NCBI RefSeq assembly: GCF_003610465.1
Contig: NZ_RAQI01000002.1
Coordinates: 620,001 to 684,000 of the forward strand
DNA from: Xenorhabdus ehlersii
Lineage (GTDB): Bacteria > Pseudomonadota > Gammaproteobacteria > Enterobacterales > Enterobacteriaceae
Direction of reading: 5' to 3'
DNA: 64,000 nt
The notes beneath the pieces were generated by a model. The model worked only from the letters and a program-made list of their open reading frames with translations. It was not told where the DNA came from and did no database searches. Positions 5,099 through 60,744 of this stretch are shown here, piece after piece. The first letter of the stretch is position 1; each line of letters starts with the position of its first letter. Made by a program: the position numbers and the translations under genes.

Positions 5099-5698
5099 AT
5101 GATTGAAAATCACTTAAATATACTCATTAAAGCAGCTTTTATTGAGAATATGGCCCTAAGTTTCTTCCTTGGAATGTGTACTTTTTTAGCTGTTTCTAAA
5201 GAGGTTAAAACTGCATTCAAACTGGGTATAACAGTCACAGTATTGCTTATATTATCCAATCAAATCAATAACTTAATTTATAATTACATACTCAAAGAGA
5301 ATACGATCATTGAAGGAATAAATTTATCATTTCTTAGTTTTATAACCTTTATTGGTGTTTTATCTGCTCTTGTCCAAATTTTGGAGATGTTTCTAGATAA
5401 GTTTATTCCCTCCCTTTATCACTCACTAGGAATTTTCTTGCCATTGCTCACTATCCACTGTGCGATTTTTGGCGCCACTATATTTATGGTTGAGCGAAAC
5501 TATAATTTTGCTGAATCTATTACTTATGGCGCAGGTTGTGGCATTGGCTGGATGCTAGCGATTATTGCCCTGGCCGGACTACGAGAAAAAATGAAATATT
5601 CAAATATACCCAAAGGATTAAAGGGATTAGGAATTACTTTTATCACTGTCGGCCTTATGTCACTTGGATTTATGTCATTCTCTGGGATATCGATTTAA
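5099..5698 (+). CDS. nqrE: orphan NqrE, subunit E of Na+-translocating NADH:quinone reductase
   Basis: 199 residues with six hydrophobic segments, the usual length of NqrE. Key family stretches are [20 protein letters not shown] at the N-terminus (with the conserved Cys of the half-membrane iron site), [20 protein letters not shown] in the middle, [20 protein letters not shown] with the second Cys, and [20 protein letters not shown] at the end. NqrE rather than RnfA is favoured by the ERNYNFAES and [15 protein letters not shown] segments. In a normal nqr operon it sits between nqrD and nqrF; here no other nqr gene is adjacent, so this is a solitary, probably extra, copy. AGGAGG lies seven bases upstream. 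Confidence 0.9.
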
Positions 5699-5883: not shown

Positions 5884-7098
5884 TTAATAACTTTGATCTG
5901 TTTGTTTTTGCTCCCCATTGCTAATAAAGCAGGACAGACAAAGTACTACTGTTGCCAGAAGCAGGCAGTAAGCGATAATCGGCCAGGTAGTAGCATTGGA
6001 TAAAATTGTAATGGTGAGTGTTCCACCTATTCCCAACAATAACCCTCCCAGACAGGAATAGAATGCTGTTGCAGTTCCGGCCATATGATCAAAACCTTGT
6101 AGTGCGCCATTAGGTGCTACTGAAATCGCCATAGAGATCCCGACAGCGACAAGCCACATTGGGACGATGAAGCCAATTACCGACTCAGGTATGAGCGTTT
6201 CGCCAACAGATAGCAACAACGCTCCTGTCATCAGGCAAAACATTCCCACCCGCAACGTATTTAGGGTTCCCCATCGGGTAATCAAACTACCCACACTTTG
6301 CGCAGTCATCATCATTGCGATAGCCACAGTTGCAAATAGCAAACTGAAAGTAATTTGTGATAATCCTTGTCGGCTCATCATTACCCAAGGGGCAGTTGAA
6401 AAGAAGACGAAGAAGCTCCCCAAGCCTGCACTGTAACAGAGTGTGTACATCCAGAAATTCAGACGTTTTACAGGAAGAAGTAATTGTGACCACGGTAAGT
6501 CTACCGTCCATTGCCGCCGAGTTTCTGGACAGAATTTCCAGACCACAATAACCGTAACTGCCATCGCACATCCTAATAAACCAAAGATTGCGCGCCACCC
6601 CAACCAAATGTCAATCAGTGTTCCGAGCAAAGGAGCTACTGCTGGAACCATGGCAAGCATAGAGCCGAGCAAGCCATAGATCACGTTGATTTCTTTACGG
6701 CCCGAATAGATATCGCGTACAGCCGCGAACATGGCTACGAGACATGCTGAAGCCCCACAGGCTTGAATAATGCGAAGACCCAAAAAAACTTCGGGGGATG
6801 AAGTAATGGCAAGGCCGAATGAAGCAACCGTATAAGCAATTCCACCGCTAAGCAAAACAGGACGGCGGCCAAACCGATCTGATAGAGGGCCAAATAGAAG
6901 CTGGCCGACTCCTAACAGGATCATATATGCAGTCAGCGTTAGCTGGATCGTTCCTATTCCGGCACTAAGTGCATCAGCGATGAAAGGCATTACGGGCAGA
7001 TACATATCCATAGCCAGTGATGCCAGTAAATTGAATGGTGATAACAGTAATACTGTGGCGGTAAGAGAATATTGCCAGAAAAAATCTTTTGATTGCAC
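5884..7098 (-). CDS. Cml/FloR-type chloramphenicol exporter (MFS, Bcr/CflA family)
   Basis: 404 residues with twelve predicted membrane segments. The N-terminus LLSPFNLLASLAMDMYLPVM is the hallmark LASLAMDxYLPV of the CmlA/FloR branch. It is followed by QLTLTAYMILLGVGQLLFGP and LSDRFGRRPVLL (MFS motif A). The conserved antiporter-motif region is GLLGSMLAMVPAVAPLLGTL with GWRAIFG. The family pumps chloramphenicol, and in FloR also florfenicol, out of the cell. Start is GTG at 7096-7098 with AGGAG eight bases upstream; an ATG nearby is in another frame. The gene is preceded by a short leader peptide and competing hairpins, the arrangement of inducible cmlA. Whether it confers resistance cannot be read from sequence alone. 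Confidence 0.85.
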   Translation of the reverse strand: MQSKDFFWQYSLTATVLLLSPFNLLASLAMDMYLPVMPFIADALSAGIGTIQLTLTAYMILLGVGQLLFGPLSDRFGRRPVLLSGGIAYTVASFGLAITSSPEVFLGLRIIQACGASACLVAMFAAVRDIYSGRKEINVIYGLLGSMLAMVPAVAPLLGTLIDIWLGWRAIFGLLGCAMAVTVIVVWKFCPETRRQWTVDLPWSQLLLPVKRLNFWMYTLCYSAGLGSFFVFFSTAPWVMMSRQGLSQITFSLLFATVAIAMMMTAQSVGSLITRWGTLNTLRVGMFCLMTGALLLSVGETLIPESVIGFIVPMWLVAVGISMAISVAPNGALQGFDHMAGTATAFYSCLGGLLLGIGGTLTITILSNATTWPIIAYCLLLATVVLCLSCFISNGEQKQTDQSY

Positions 7099-7125
7099 GA
7101 ATCCATCTCCTAAAGTTAAGGATTT

Positions 7126-7198
7126 GGCGGCGTGCTCATAGAATTAAGTGCTTCTTGAGAACGCCGCAACAACCGAAAAAAACTGTGGTTGCTGCGGC
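7126..7198 (-). promoter_or_regulatory. translational attenuator of the Cml exporter
   Basis: Read in transcript direction, the first arm GCCGCAGCAACC (7198-7187) follows the leader stop codon directly and pairs with GGTTGTTGCGGC (7173-7162), 11 of 12 bases. The 3' part of that second arm can instead pair with ACGCCGC(C) at 7133-7126, nearer the exporter start. The two structures exclude each other. A ribosome stalled at the end of the leader would cover the first arm and switch the fold. Confidence 0.75.
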
Positions 7199-7234
7199 TT
7201 ATTTATCTGTTTTGTGCTTATTAAGGGTACTCAT
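7199..7234 (-). CDS. Cml leader peptide, 11 residues
   Basis: An ATG at 7232-7234 opens an 11-codon frame encoding MSTLNKHKTDK and ends in TAA at 7199-7201, just before the attenuator stem. An AGGAT ribosome site lies about nine bases upstream. It resembles the known cmlA leader (MSTSKNADK) at its start, and its end KTDK matches the stalling part of the cat-86 leader (MVKTDK). Both known peptides inhibit peptidyltransferase and stall ribosomes when chloramphenicol is present. The gene is too short for routine gene finding. Confidence 0.8.
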   Translation of the reverse strand: MSTLNKHKTDK

Positions 7235-7303
7235 ATATAGGTTATCCTGTAGTGAATTCGTATCGTAAGATCTCATGCTGAGATGCAAAGAGCCTTAAAT
7301 TAT

Positions 7304-9746: not shown

Positions 9747-11090
9747 ATGCAAGATAAGAAGCCTGATGTACCTGTCTCAGAAGATGGCAATCTCGTGATT
9801 GTTACAACACCGGAATATGTCAAAGAAGCGATAAATGAGCACGCCCAAAGCCGTAACCATCCAAATGCAACATTACAGGATAAAGGTTTTGTTGTCCTGA
9901 GTAATGATACTGGCAGTGATAGCGAAACGATGGCTGCAACACCCAAAGCAGTGAAAGCAGCATATGACCTAGCCAATACTGCAAACAATAATGCCGGTGA
10001 CCGTGTTCCAATTGGGCGTAAAGTTAATGGTCATGCCCTATCTGCTGATATCACTCTGAACGCAGAGGATGTCGGAACTTACACTAAAGCAGAAACTGAC
10101 TCTCATATCAGTGAAGTGAACACATTAGCAACCACCGCAAATCAGAATGCTATCAATGCCAATACCAATGCCGAAAGTAGGCTAGCTAAAAATCAGAATG
10201 GGGCTGATATTCCTAATAAACAAGAATTTATTAGTAACATAGGCGCAGTATCCGAAAATGGTGGAGTTTATCCAGGCTCTTTCCAATTTCAACAAATAGA
10301 AACAACACCGAAAGAAGCGAACCCTGTAAAGATCGTATCTGCGCCTCATCAAGAAGCTAATAAGCTTGTAGCCTTCACTAATTATGGTTGGTACTGCAAT
10401 GATATTCAAACAGGTATTGTACGAGGTGGTAGCTCTGATACTTTAGGATATGCAGTAGACATTAACACTCGACGTGCATTCACAGTAGATCCGTGGGGGA
10501 TAGGCGTAAATCCAAACATACCAAGGGGAGGTATAAATATGTTCCGACCCAATGGAACATTTTGGAGGATAGAAGGGCTCCCTAATGATGAAAAGACTTT
10601 GCTTTACTTTCTAGACAGAAATGCAGCAGGAAATAAAAACGAATCTGTTCAAGCCCTACCAAAAGGATTTGGTACCATTATGTCAACCTCTCAGCATTAT
10701 ATTGATGCTAGCGGATTTGTGAAAAACATTACCCCGGTAATCAATCTATTTTCTGATGGTTCGCTGAAAAAAAATGGTGGCTCTGAAGGTGCAACTGCTG
10801 AACGAGTCTCCAAGGGTATTTACCATATTAAAGGTGTTTCCGGTTTTAATACCAGAGATATATGGAGCAATATAGAGATACCACTTTGCCTGAACAAATT
10901 ACCACTAGTTTGGGTAAATCACGAAACCCTACCCGATGGCTCTATCAAATTAATGACCTACCACCGCGAACATTCAGACGCTCCCATTTTCGCCAGAAAT
11001 ATACGGGAAGGTTACTCAGACGGTGATTTAATCGATATTCCCGATGGCAGATTTATTTCTGTCCGGGTGCAAATGCCGGACACTAAATAA
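9747..11090 (+). CDS. phage tail-fibre protein
   Basis: 447 residues. The N-terminal part holds short tail-fibre modules: AATPKAVKAAYDLANTANNN, then RKVNGHALSADITLNAEDVG-TYTKAE, the VNG-x-x-LS-x-DITL motif of Mu/lambda-type side-tail fibres. The C-terminal domain (IYHIKGVSGFNTRDIWSNIE, then DIPDGRFISVRVQMPDT) is the tip type common in prophages and R-type tailocins of this bacterial group. The attachment module that joins a fibre to the baseplate is not obvious at the N-terminus, so this may be a fibre cassette rather than a complete fibre. GAGGG lies seven bases before the ATG. No tail, capsid or lysis genes are adjacent, and the usual fibre-assembly chaperone gene is missing; a lectin gene follows instead. 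Confidence 0.85.
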   Translation: MQDKKPDVPVSEDGNLVIVTTPEYVKEAINEHAQSRNHPNATLQDKGFVVLSNDTGSDSETMAATPKAVKAAYDLANTANNNAGDRVPIGRKVNGHALSADITLNAEDVGTYTKAETDSHISEVNTLATTANQNAINANTNAESRLAKNQNGADIPNKQEFISNIGAVSENGGVYPGSFQFQQIETTPKEANPVKIVSAPHQEANKLVAFTNYGWYCNDIQTGIVRGGSSDTLGYAVDINTRRAFTVDPWGIGVNPNIPRGGINMFRPNGTFWRIEGLPNDEKTLLYFLDRNAAGNKNESVQALPKGFGTIMSTSQHYIDASGFVKNITPVINLFSDGSLKKNGGSEGATAERVSKGIYHIKGVSGFNTRDIWSNIEIPLCLNKLPLVWVNHETLPDGSIKLMTYHREHSDAPIFARNIREGYSDGDLIDIPDGRFISVRVQMPDTK

Positions 11091-11141
11091 CTACAATTTT
11101 AATTCTTCTTCCGCTTTCAAAATATAATTCGAGGTAATGCT

Positions 11142-11504
11142 ATGTATGATTGGACTGGAACTGTTTCTGGAAAACTTCAACAAGGTCAACCCACGGGACT
11201 TGTACTCAAAAAAGGTGACGTGATCTCTATTACTGCTTCGGGATGGGTTCGGTACACTCTTGATAATACAAACCCTTGGTCTGCCCCTCAAGGCGTACCT
11301 CCTCGCCCTCCCGGAGGGGCTTTAGTCGCAAAGATTGGCGACAACACCTATGAGATTGGCAATGGAGTTCTCCACAGGACAGTTCCCACAGATGGTGAGT
11401 TAACCCTTATATTTTTAGATAGCGCTTATGAAGATAATTCTGGTGGCTTTGATGTCAACGTTAAAATAGAGTCACGTTATTATCCTCTTCAGGAAATCAA
11501 ATAA
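11142..11504 (+). CDS. PA-IL/LecA-like galactophilic lectin
   Basis: 120 residues, the size of Pseudomonas LecA (PA-IL). It follows the fold's sequence closely: DWTGTVSGKLQQGQPTGLVL, KKGDVISITASGWVRY (LecA: PGDVITIVAAGWASY), GGALVAKIGDNTYEIGNG (LecA: CGALVMKIG) and FLDSAYEDNSGGFDVNVKIE (LecA: D-VPGTYGNNSGSFSVNI). The Tyr, Asp and Asn-Ser-Gly used for calcium and sugar binding are kept; the LecA Thr104 position looks replaced, and this loop is two residues shorter. No signal peptide, as in LecA. GAGG precedes the ATG. It is 51 bp downstream of the tail-fibre gene, so the two are probably co-transcribed. Confidence 0.85.
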   Translation: MYDWTGTVSGKLQQGQPTGLVLKKGDVISITASGWVRYTLDNTNPWSAPQGVPPRPPGGALVAKIGDNTYEIGNGVLHRTVPTDGELTLIFLDSAYEDNSGGFDVNVKIESRYYPLQEIK

Positions 11505-60330: not shown

Positions 60331-60597
60331 AAGCTCCTACGCAATAGACAATATTTAACAAAATAAAAACAATGATTTTACATAAAATTTTTACCATATT
60401 TAACAGACTATTTCTAAGCATAATCTGCCACTATGATTTAAATTTTCTTTCAGAATACCGTCTCTCTTCCTGAATTTAAATTTTCTTTAATTATTTTTAC
60501 CAGTATTCACTTGTAAAATTTAGGGAGATATCACAGCTTATTTAAAAACTAGCGTGACTTGCACCCAGGATCGTGTCTTGTTACTTTAAGCACAAGC
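60331..60597. other. A+T-rich spacer upstream of msrC
   Basis: Nothing beyond the msrC promoter area is visible. Confidence 0.4.
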
Positions 60598-60632
60598 AAA
60601 AAAAAGGCCGAGTTCACTCCTCTACTCGGCCT
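60598..60632 (-). terminator. terminator of the yobA-yebZ-yebY transcript
   Basis: AGGCCGAGT / ACTCGGCCT, a perfect 9-bp stem with a 10-base loop; on the minus strand it is followed by seven T. Confidence 0.88.
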
Positions 60633-60744
60633 AGGGAAAAATAGCTCTATCAAAGAGCCTTGCGCTAAAAGTTGCCATTGAGACGTAGAACAACTTACGA
60701 CTTAAAGCGTAGTTGACATACAATGATTTACCAAATTTTAACCA

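Follow-up and report, generated by a model that had tools for sequence, protein, structure and literature searches.

A chloramphenicol-responsive translation attenuator of the cmlA kind very probably precedes the chromosomal Cml-type exporter gene of Xenorhabdus ehlersii, where it would make translation of the exporter depend on the drug. The exporter gene lies on the minus strand at 5884-7098 of the window, meaning the whole 64,000-nucleotide stretch of DNA that was analysed, and profile matches together with sequence comparison indicate that it encodes a chloramphenicol exporter of the MFS type with 404 amino acids. The protein scored 538.6 bits against the CmlA/FloR model NF033134, above the cut-off of 450, which assigns it to that family and agrees with the Cml exporter named in a preliminary description of this DNA; its best family, CmlB1, was matched at 676.5 bits, under that model's cut-off of 900. 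A protein named from Xenorhabdus sp. TS4 matches it at 100%, and its identity to integron CmlA1 is 66%. The gene had also been called chromosomal, which holds at least for two relatives whose Cml genes lie on single contigs of 4.3 and 4.8 Mb (G010 and G030). No integron was noted next to the window gene, and no integrase was found among the eight neighbours run against Pfam, which represent part of the neighbourhood. A gene for an Rnf/Nqr-type membrane subunit (5099-5698; PF02508, E 1.2e-52) adjoins the exporter gene. At 9747-11504 the window also holds two genes in succession, one for a phage tail fibre (PF03406, PF25670) and one for a PA-IL-like lectin (PF07828); the SdsR/RyeB and SraC/RyeA RNA pair, matched in Rfam, lies on opposite strands at 60595-60737.

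The sensing part of the attenuator would be an 11-codon leader frame on the minus strand, MSTLNKHKTDK (codons 7234-7202, stop 7201-7199), whose stop codon directly abuts a stem beginning at 7198, just as the preliminary description had it. Judged from its sequence, the leader would have its own ribosome binding site, a presumed AGGA at 7248-7245, 10 bases upstream of the leader ATG; relatives carry AGGA, GAGA or a similar motif. Initiation at an in-frame ATG further upstream would instead give a leader of 25 codons. A likely promoter was assigned from its position and consists of TTGCAT (7288-7283), 15 bases, and TACGAT (7267-7262), all on the minus strand; comparison by eye with the window indicated a 17-base spacer in the promoter region before cmlA1 and before an Acinetobacter cml gene. 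The promoter scan gave no minus-strand prediction near the leader. According to a review, cmlA1 has a working promoter 145 bp upstream (PMC8876359). Between the presumed promoter hexamers of the window lies a perfect inverted repeat, ATCTCA-GCA-TGAGAT (7270-7284), and since the same repeat is perfect at this place in L003 and imperfect in L008, it could be either chance or an operator. The leader ends in TDK and thus fits the chloramphenicol stall context of Ala, Ser or Thr, any residue, Lys or Arg, and stop. No Rfam family reached its gathering score in the leader, and at a relaxed threshold the single match was a weak one to a microRNA model, which at 15.7 bits fell far short of that model's gathering score of 60. 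A scan of both strands of the window for a short ATG frame ending in [AST]x[KR]-stop before an 11-of-12 stem found this one site, and the same scan on both strands of 60 resampled windows found one match, with criteria that were chosen after the site was known.

Downstream of the leader, four RNA arms can be recognized on the minus strand. Arm 1 (GCCGCAGCAACC, 7198-7187) pairs with arm 2 (GGTTGTTGCGGC, 7174-7163) at 12 of 12 positions if one G-U is counted; the preliminary description had seen this stem correctly and undercounted it as 11 of 12. An overlapping part of arm 2 (GCGGCGTTCTCA, 7167-7156) pairs alternatively with arm 3 (TGAGCACGCCGC, 7138-7127) at 11 of 12 positions. The earlier second pairing of 7161-7167 with 7126-7133 was therefore real, and its extent has been lengthened. 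A third pairing, absent from the preliminary description, joins arm 3 to arm 4 (7111-7095, placed by the RNAalifold consensus) through 7135-7131, 7127-7125 and 7122-7119 with 7099-7095, 7105-7103 and 7111-7108, respectively, and encloses both the ribosome site of the exporter (AGGAG, 7111-7107) and its GTG start (7098-7096). The region 7080-7240 folds at -43.2 kcal/mol (z -4.3), and none of 200 shuffles folded as well. Its best fold is a mixture of 2:3 with a 1:2 stem shortened to 9 pairs, and the start codon is paired with leader bases; with one base more upstream and six more of the gene, the best fold becomes 1:2 plus 3:4. When arm 1 was covered in silico, the probability of 2:3 in the window rose from 0.21 to 0.87. 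The same layout of leader plus stem is found in transcription attenuators of other antibiotic genes, some of them treated in PMC5418344, and stem 1:2 could in principle terminate the transcript unless a stalled ribosome prevented it. Such a mechanism is highly unlikely here, as the stem is followed by GTTCTCAAGAAG, which lacks a T run, the terminator scan found no terminator on the minus strand, and conservation of 3:4 at the start codon would be without purpose.

For translation attenuation, we propose a course of events in which stalling and induction follow the logic of the arms. Without drug, the leader would be translated and released, arms 1 and 2 would pair, and arm 3 would pair with arm 4, hiding the GTG start of the exporter, as folding prediction and conservation suggest. 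With the drug bound, a ribosome is predicted, by analogy with studied leaders, to stall with Thr (in relatives also Ala or Ser) as the penultimate residue, Asp in the P site and the last Lys or Arg codon in the A site, which in the window would be the Lys codon at 7204-7202. The stalled ribosome would cover the first bases of arm 1, allowing 2:3 to form; arm 4 would then be freed and the exporter translated.

Evidence for the conserved pairing came from 23 aligned leaders, for which RNAalifold returned a consensus of 1:2 and 3:4 without prompting. Paired cells made up 99.3% of 276 for 1:2, 88.7% for 2:3 and 93.1% of 276 for 3:4, against 25-74%, 34-52% and 27-53%, respectively, when the arms were slid out of register. 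Covariation in 1:2 stood above that in shuffles and was reached by 3 of 500; in the 16 distinct arm pairs that 35 rows provide for this stem, 184 of 192 cells were paired, a count reached by none of 500 shuffles. Covariation was rejected as proof of 2:3 and 3:4, being no higher than in shuffles; for 2:3, only the count of paired cells was rare among them (14 of 500).

The effect of a stalled ribosome was modelled by masking the part of arm 1 that lies within 13 bases of the start of the A-site codon. Across the 23 rows, the mean probability of 2:3 rose from 0.10 to 0.72 and that of 3:4 fell from 0.73 to 0.36, with 2:3 increasing in 23 of 23 rows and 3:4 decreasing in 22; changes were small in L006, L009 and L010, where 3:4 persisted. 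Mean openness of the start codon increased from 0.19 to 0.67, with a gain of at least 0.4 in 16 of 23 rows, against an unchanged 0.32 and 3.5% with such a gain among 460 shuffles. When folding began at the stop codon, L002 and L026 showed a less open start codon under the mask, and the gain stayed below 0.2 in L005, L010, L022 and L027; cmlA1 itself gained 0.35. When the RNA was begun 40 bases further upstream, openness of the start codon rose in all 23 Cml-type rows. Openness of the ribosome site barely moved, from 0.21 to 0.23, and increased in 16 of 26 rows; among the 26, L031-L033 were measured at the second codon and not at the start. These folds suggest, for most rows and not for all, an off state of 1:2 and 3:4 with the start codon paired and an on state of 2:3.

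The ending of the leader peptide is the part kept among relatives. All 31 distinct leaders end in Lys or Arg, and their third-last residue is Ala, Ser or Thr in 29 and Val in the other two; at the remaining inner positions, Ala, Ser and Thr account for 57 of 181 residues. The residues kept at the leader end are encoded variously (AGA, AAA, AAG or CGC; ACA, GCA or TCA). Leaders were picked by requiring the stop codon to lie next to a stem arm, with no requirement on the end residues, so the abutment of stop and arm 1 in all 31 is built into the rule. Identical leaders and duplicate loci were counted once (L045, L046, L049, L051 and L056 bring no new peptide), and the leader tables leave out L029 (N-terminus and leader missing), L034 (no leader stop), L035 (a fragment) and the distant exporters L036-L041. 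Because the 31 leaders include kin by descent, they do not represent 31 independent events. Among 18 distinct Xenorhabdus Cml-type leaders, 10 end in TDR and 2 in TDK, while AER, SDR, AEK, AIK, VDK and VVK occur once each; given this variation, the idea that KTDK combines two known endings does not hold up. The two Val leaders, ending in VDK and VVK (L024 and L025), depart from the Ala/Ser/Thr rule and largely retain the RNA arms.

Chloramphenicol is reported to arrest translation when Ala, Ser or Thr is the penultimate residue (PMC8066774), and toeprints reported for the cmlA leader place the stall with Asp8 in the P site and Lys9, the last codon, in the A site (PMC11190716). By analogy with this published context, the kept ending would mark the expected stall site. 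The same switch could nonetheless have another peptidyl-transferase inhibitor as its natural inducer, made by a neighbour in the insect cadaver or by Xenorhabdus itself, with chloramphenicol acting as a stand-in. The usual Thr of Xenorhabdus leaders, in place of Ala, described as the stronger residue (PMC8066774), and the Val of two leaders are in keeping with this idea. We hold it possible and somewhat improbable, since the exporter family and the leader motif both indicate phenicols and no candidate inducer has been identified.

A phenicol-responsive attenuator also agrees with the distribution of leader and exporter. Of 30 Xenorhabdus genomes, 19 carry at least one Cml-type gene, for a total of 21 copies; a FloR-like gene was found in 4 and a fragment in 1, and the other 6 had none of these. 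Leader and stem precede 20 of the 21 Cml-type copies, the exception being L029, which also lacks a match to the first 29 residues; conservation of the leader alongside the exporter, on which the preliminary description had made its reading depend, is thus what was found. The FloR-like copies are 44-47% identical, and three of the four have a leader (MAPALQTVR, MSLIPQTVR or MAPSLQTVR) with the same kind of stem. In the fourth (L034, genome G013), no stop precedes the stem, and the leader would be read through it. Such cases could suggest a decayed relic, with leader and stem inherited and the exporter now constitutive: L029 lacks N-terminus and leader, G011 retains a C-terminal fragment only, L034 has no stop at the leader end, and L012 and L017 have a stop inside the matched stretch. 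This is quite unlikely, as 20 of the 21 Cml-type copies retain the end of the leader and the stem despite drift in the upstream DNA and inside the peptide.

Searches outside the genus extended the distribution of the attenuator. A search of 84,980 species, each represented by one genome, detects close relatives only; all 9 loci that it gave were from Xenorhabdus. In 6 genomes from the same family outside Xenorhabdus, the best match was at most 30% identical or absent; if Photorhabdus is among them, it offers no Cml for comparison. With an E limit of 1e-80, CmlA/FloR matches were found in 3 of 369 genomes of the class (one being the nearest Xenorhabdus) and 13 of 398 of the phylum (two being Xenorhabdus). 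The class and phylum searches together gave 11 different loci outside Xenorhabdus, and leader and stem were present at all 11. Partial matches to the leader DNA occur in 1230 of 72,556 plasmid records, in no case covering 80% of the query, and 40 of the 40 matches listed are at cml or cmlA genes. Six distant exporters (26-34% identity, L036-L041) showed no such leader and stem in the stretch inspected; a looser rule found an inverted repeat after the stop in three of them, with unrelated sequence.

Evidence for common descent came from alignment of the leader regions. The leader region of the window could be aligned with its counterparts before integron cmlA1 (L011) and before an Acinetobacter plasmid cml gene that lies beside a transposase (L010); few gaps were needed between the stop codon and the GTG start, and the alignment takes in the arms, their spacing and the ribosome site. 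On the evidence of sequence, the Xenorhabdus attenuator is a homologue of that of integron cmlA and shares common descent with its leader. In favour of convergence between Xenorhabdus and integron cmlA, the inner parts of the leaders differ, and very short leaders could form more than once; such an origin is exceedingly unlikely given the aligned arms and spacing between stop codon and GTG start and the position of both exporters on the same side of the exporter tree. That tree has 50 rows and was rooted at the midpoint for drawing only. It unites the Xenorhabdus Cml proteins in a single clade (100/99) and places integron cmlA1 together with Pseudomonas CmlB and Halomonas; the other side holds FloR-type proteins, including plasmid floR and the Xenorhabdus FloR-like rows. 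An origin of integron cmlA from within Xenorhabdus was ruled out, given the 100/99 clade and the pairing of cmlA1 with Pseudomonas CmlB. The Xenorhabdus clade, standing beside integron cmlA, is its sister. The preliminary description is accordingly supported in its proposal of a non-integron version of cmlA-type control, with homologous leader, stem and alternative pairing, and was mistaken in offering a parallel origin; the tree lends no support to its alternative, a version ancestral to cmlA.

Common descent of the attenuators may extend further. The switch shares an ancestral element with that of integron cmlA and probably with that of floR. As leaders occur on both sides of the tree, one ancestral attenuator is the simplest reading, with exchange a possibility. 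Confidence is evenly divided on whether the attenuator predates cmlA and floR, having arisen once in the CmlA/FloR ancestor, been kept chromosomally and been mobilized as a ready-made sensor. A natural exchange between two attenuators is seen in L046 (G283, about 1350-1410), which resembles cmlA1 in its upstream stretch and leader codons and switches, within a shared block at the end of the leader, to the floR2 stem and gene.

The attenuator mechanism is already known, and Xenorhabdus provides a conserved chromosomal case of it. No paper on the Xenorhabdus leader was found among the titles and abstract openings searched, a coverage that mostly excludes subscription papers. Through the relatives, one drug-sensing leader is available in a set of natural forms, and the published stall rule can be compared with them: 29 of 31 obey it and two do not. 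The relatives also indicate that cmlA control is not peculiar to integrons. The translation attenuator of cmlA in the integron of Tn1696 was reportedly described by Stokes and Hall in 1991. A review treats cmlA as an established attenuator that has stem-loops in two alternate pairs (PMC8876359), which makes Stokes and Hall the probable source of the four-arm logic for cmlA. Common to cmlA and Xenorhabdus are a short leader with the stall motif, a stop codon abutting arm 1, alternate stem-loop pairs, homologous DNA and, by prediction in Xenorhabdus, a sequestered ribosome site and start; unlike that of cmlA, the Xenorhabdus leaders have 7-12 codons and mostly end in TDR or TDK.

For floR, two papers describe a putative attenuator whose hairpin does not overlap the ribosome site and whose part is unclear (PMC5890775; PMC8256890). 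Like the Xenorhabdus leaders, that of floR (MGNSKSADK) ends beside an inverted repeat whose sequence is of the same kind; unlike them, it has been described with a single hairpin, and its exporter is 47-48% identical. Folds of plasmid floR (L044 and L045) leave the start codon closed, and the ribosome-site region opens in L044 (0.27 to 0.56) and not in L045 (0.30 to 0.23). Among 12 FloR-type loci, the start-codon switch is clear in L031-L033 and L054, slight in L047, L055 and L057, and absent in L044, L045, L050, L052 and L053. The folds thus weakly support a four-arm switch in plasmid floR. Such a switch may explain how the floR hairpin could act far from the ribosome site, giving a testable answer to the question, raised by the two floR papers, of regulation by a hairpin that does not touch that site.

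Two further systems share single elements with the window. The cat-86 leader of Bacillus, MVKTDK, stalls ribosomes with chloramphenicol; it resembles the window leader in its ending, KTDK, and differs in its gene product. The ermC attenuator has a macrolide-sensing leader and switches from 1:2 and 3:4 to 2:3. A review likens it to cmlA (PMC8876359), and it shares with the Xenorhabdus attenuator the logic of these pairings, although its gene is unrelated and its leader senses a macrolide.
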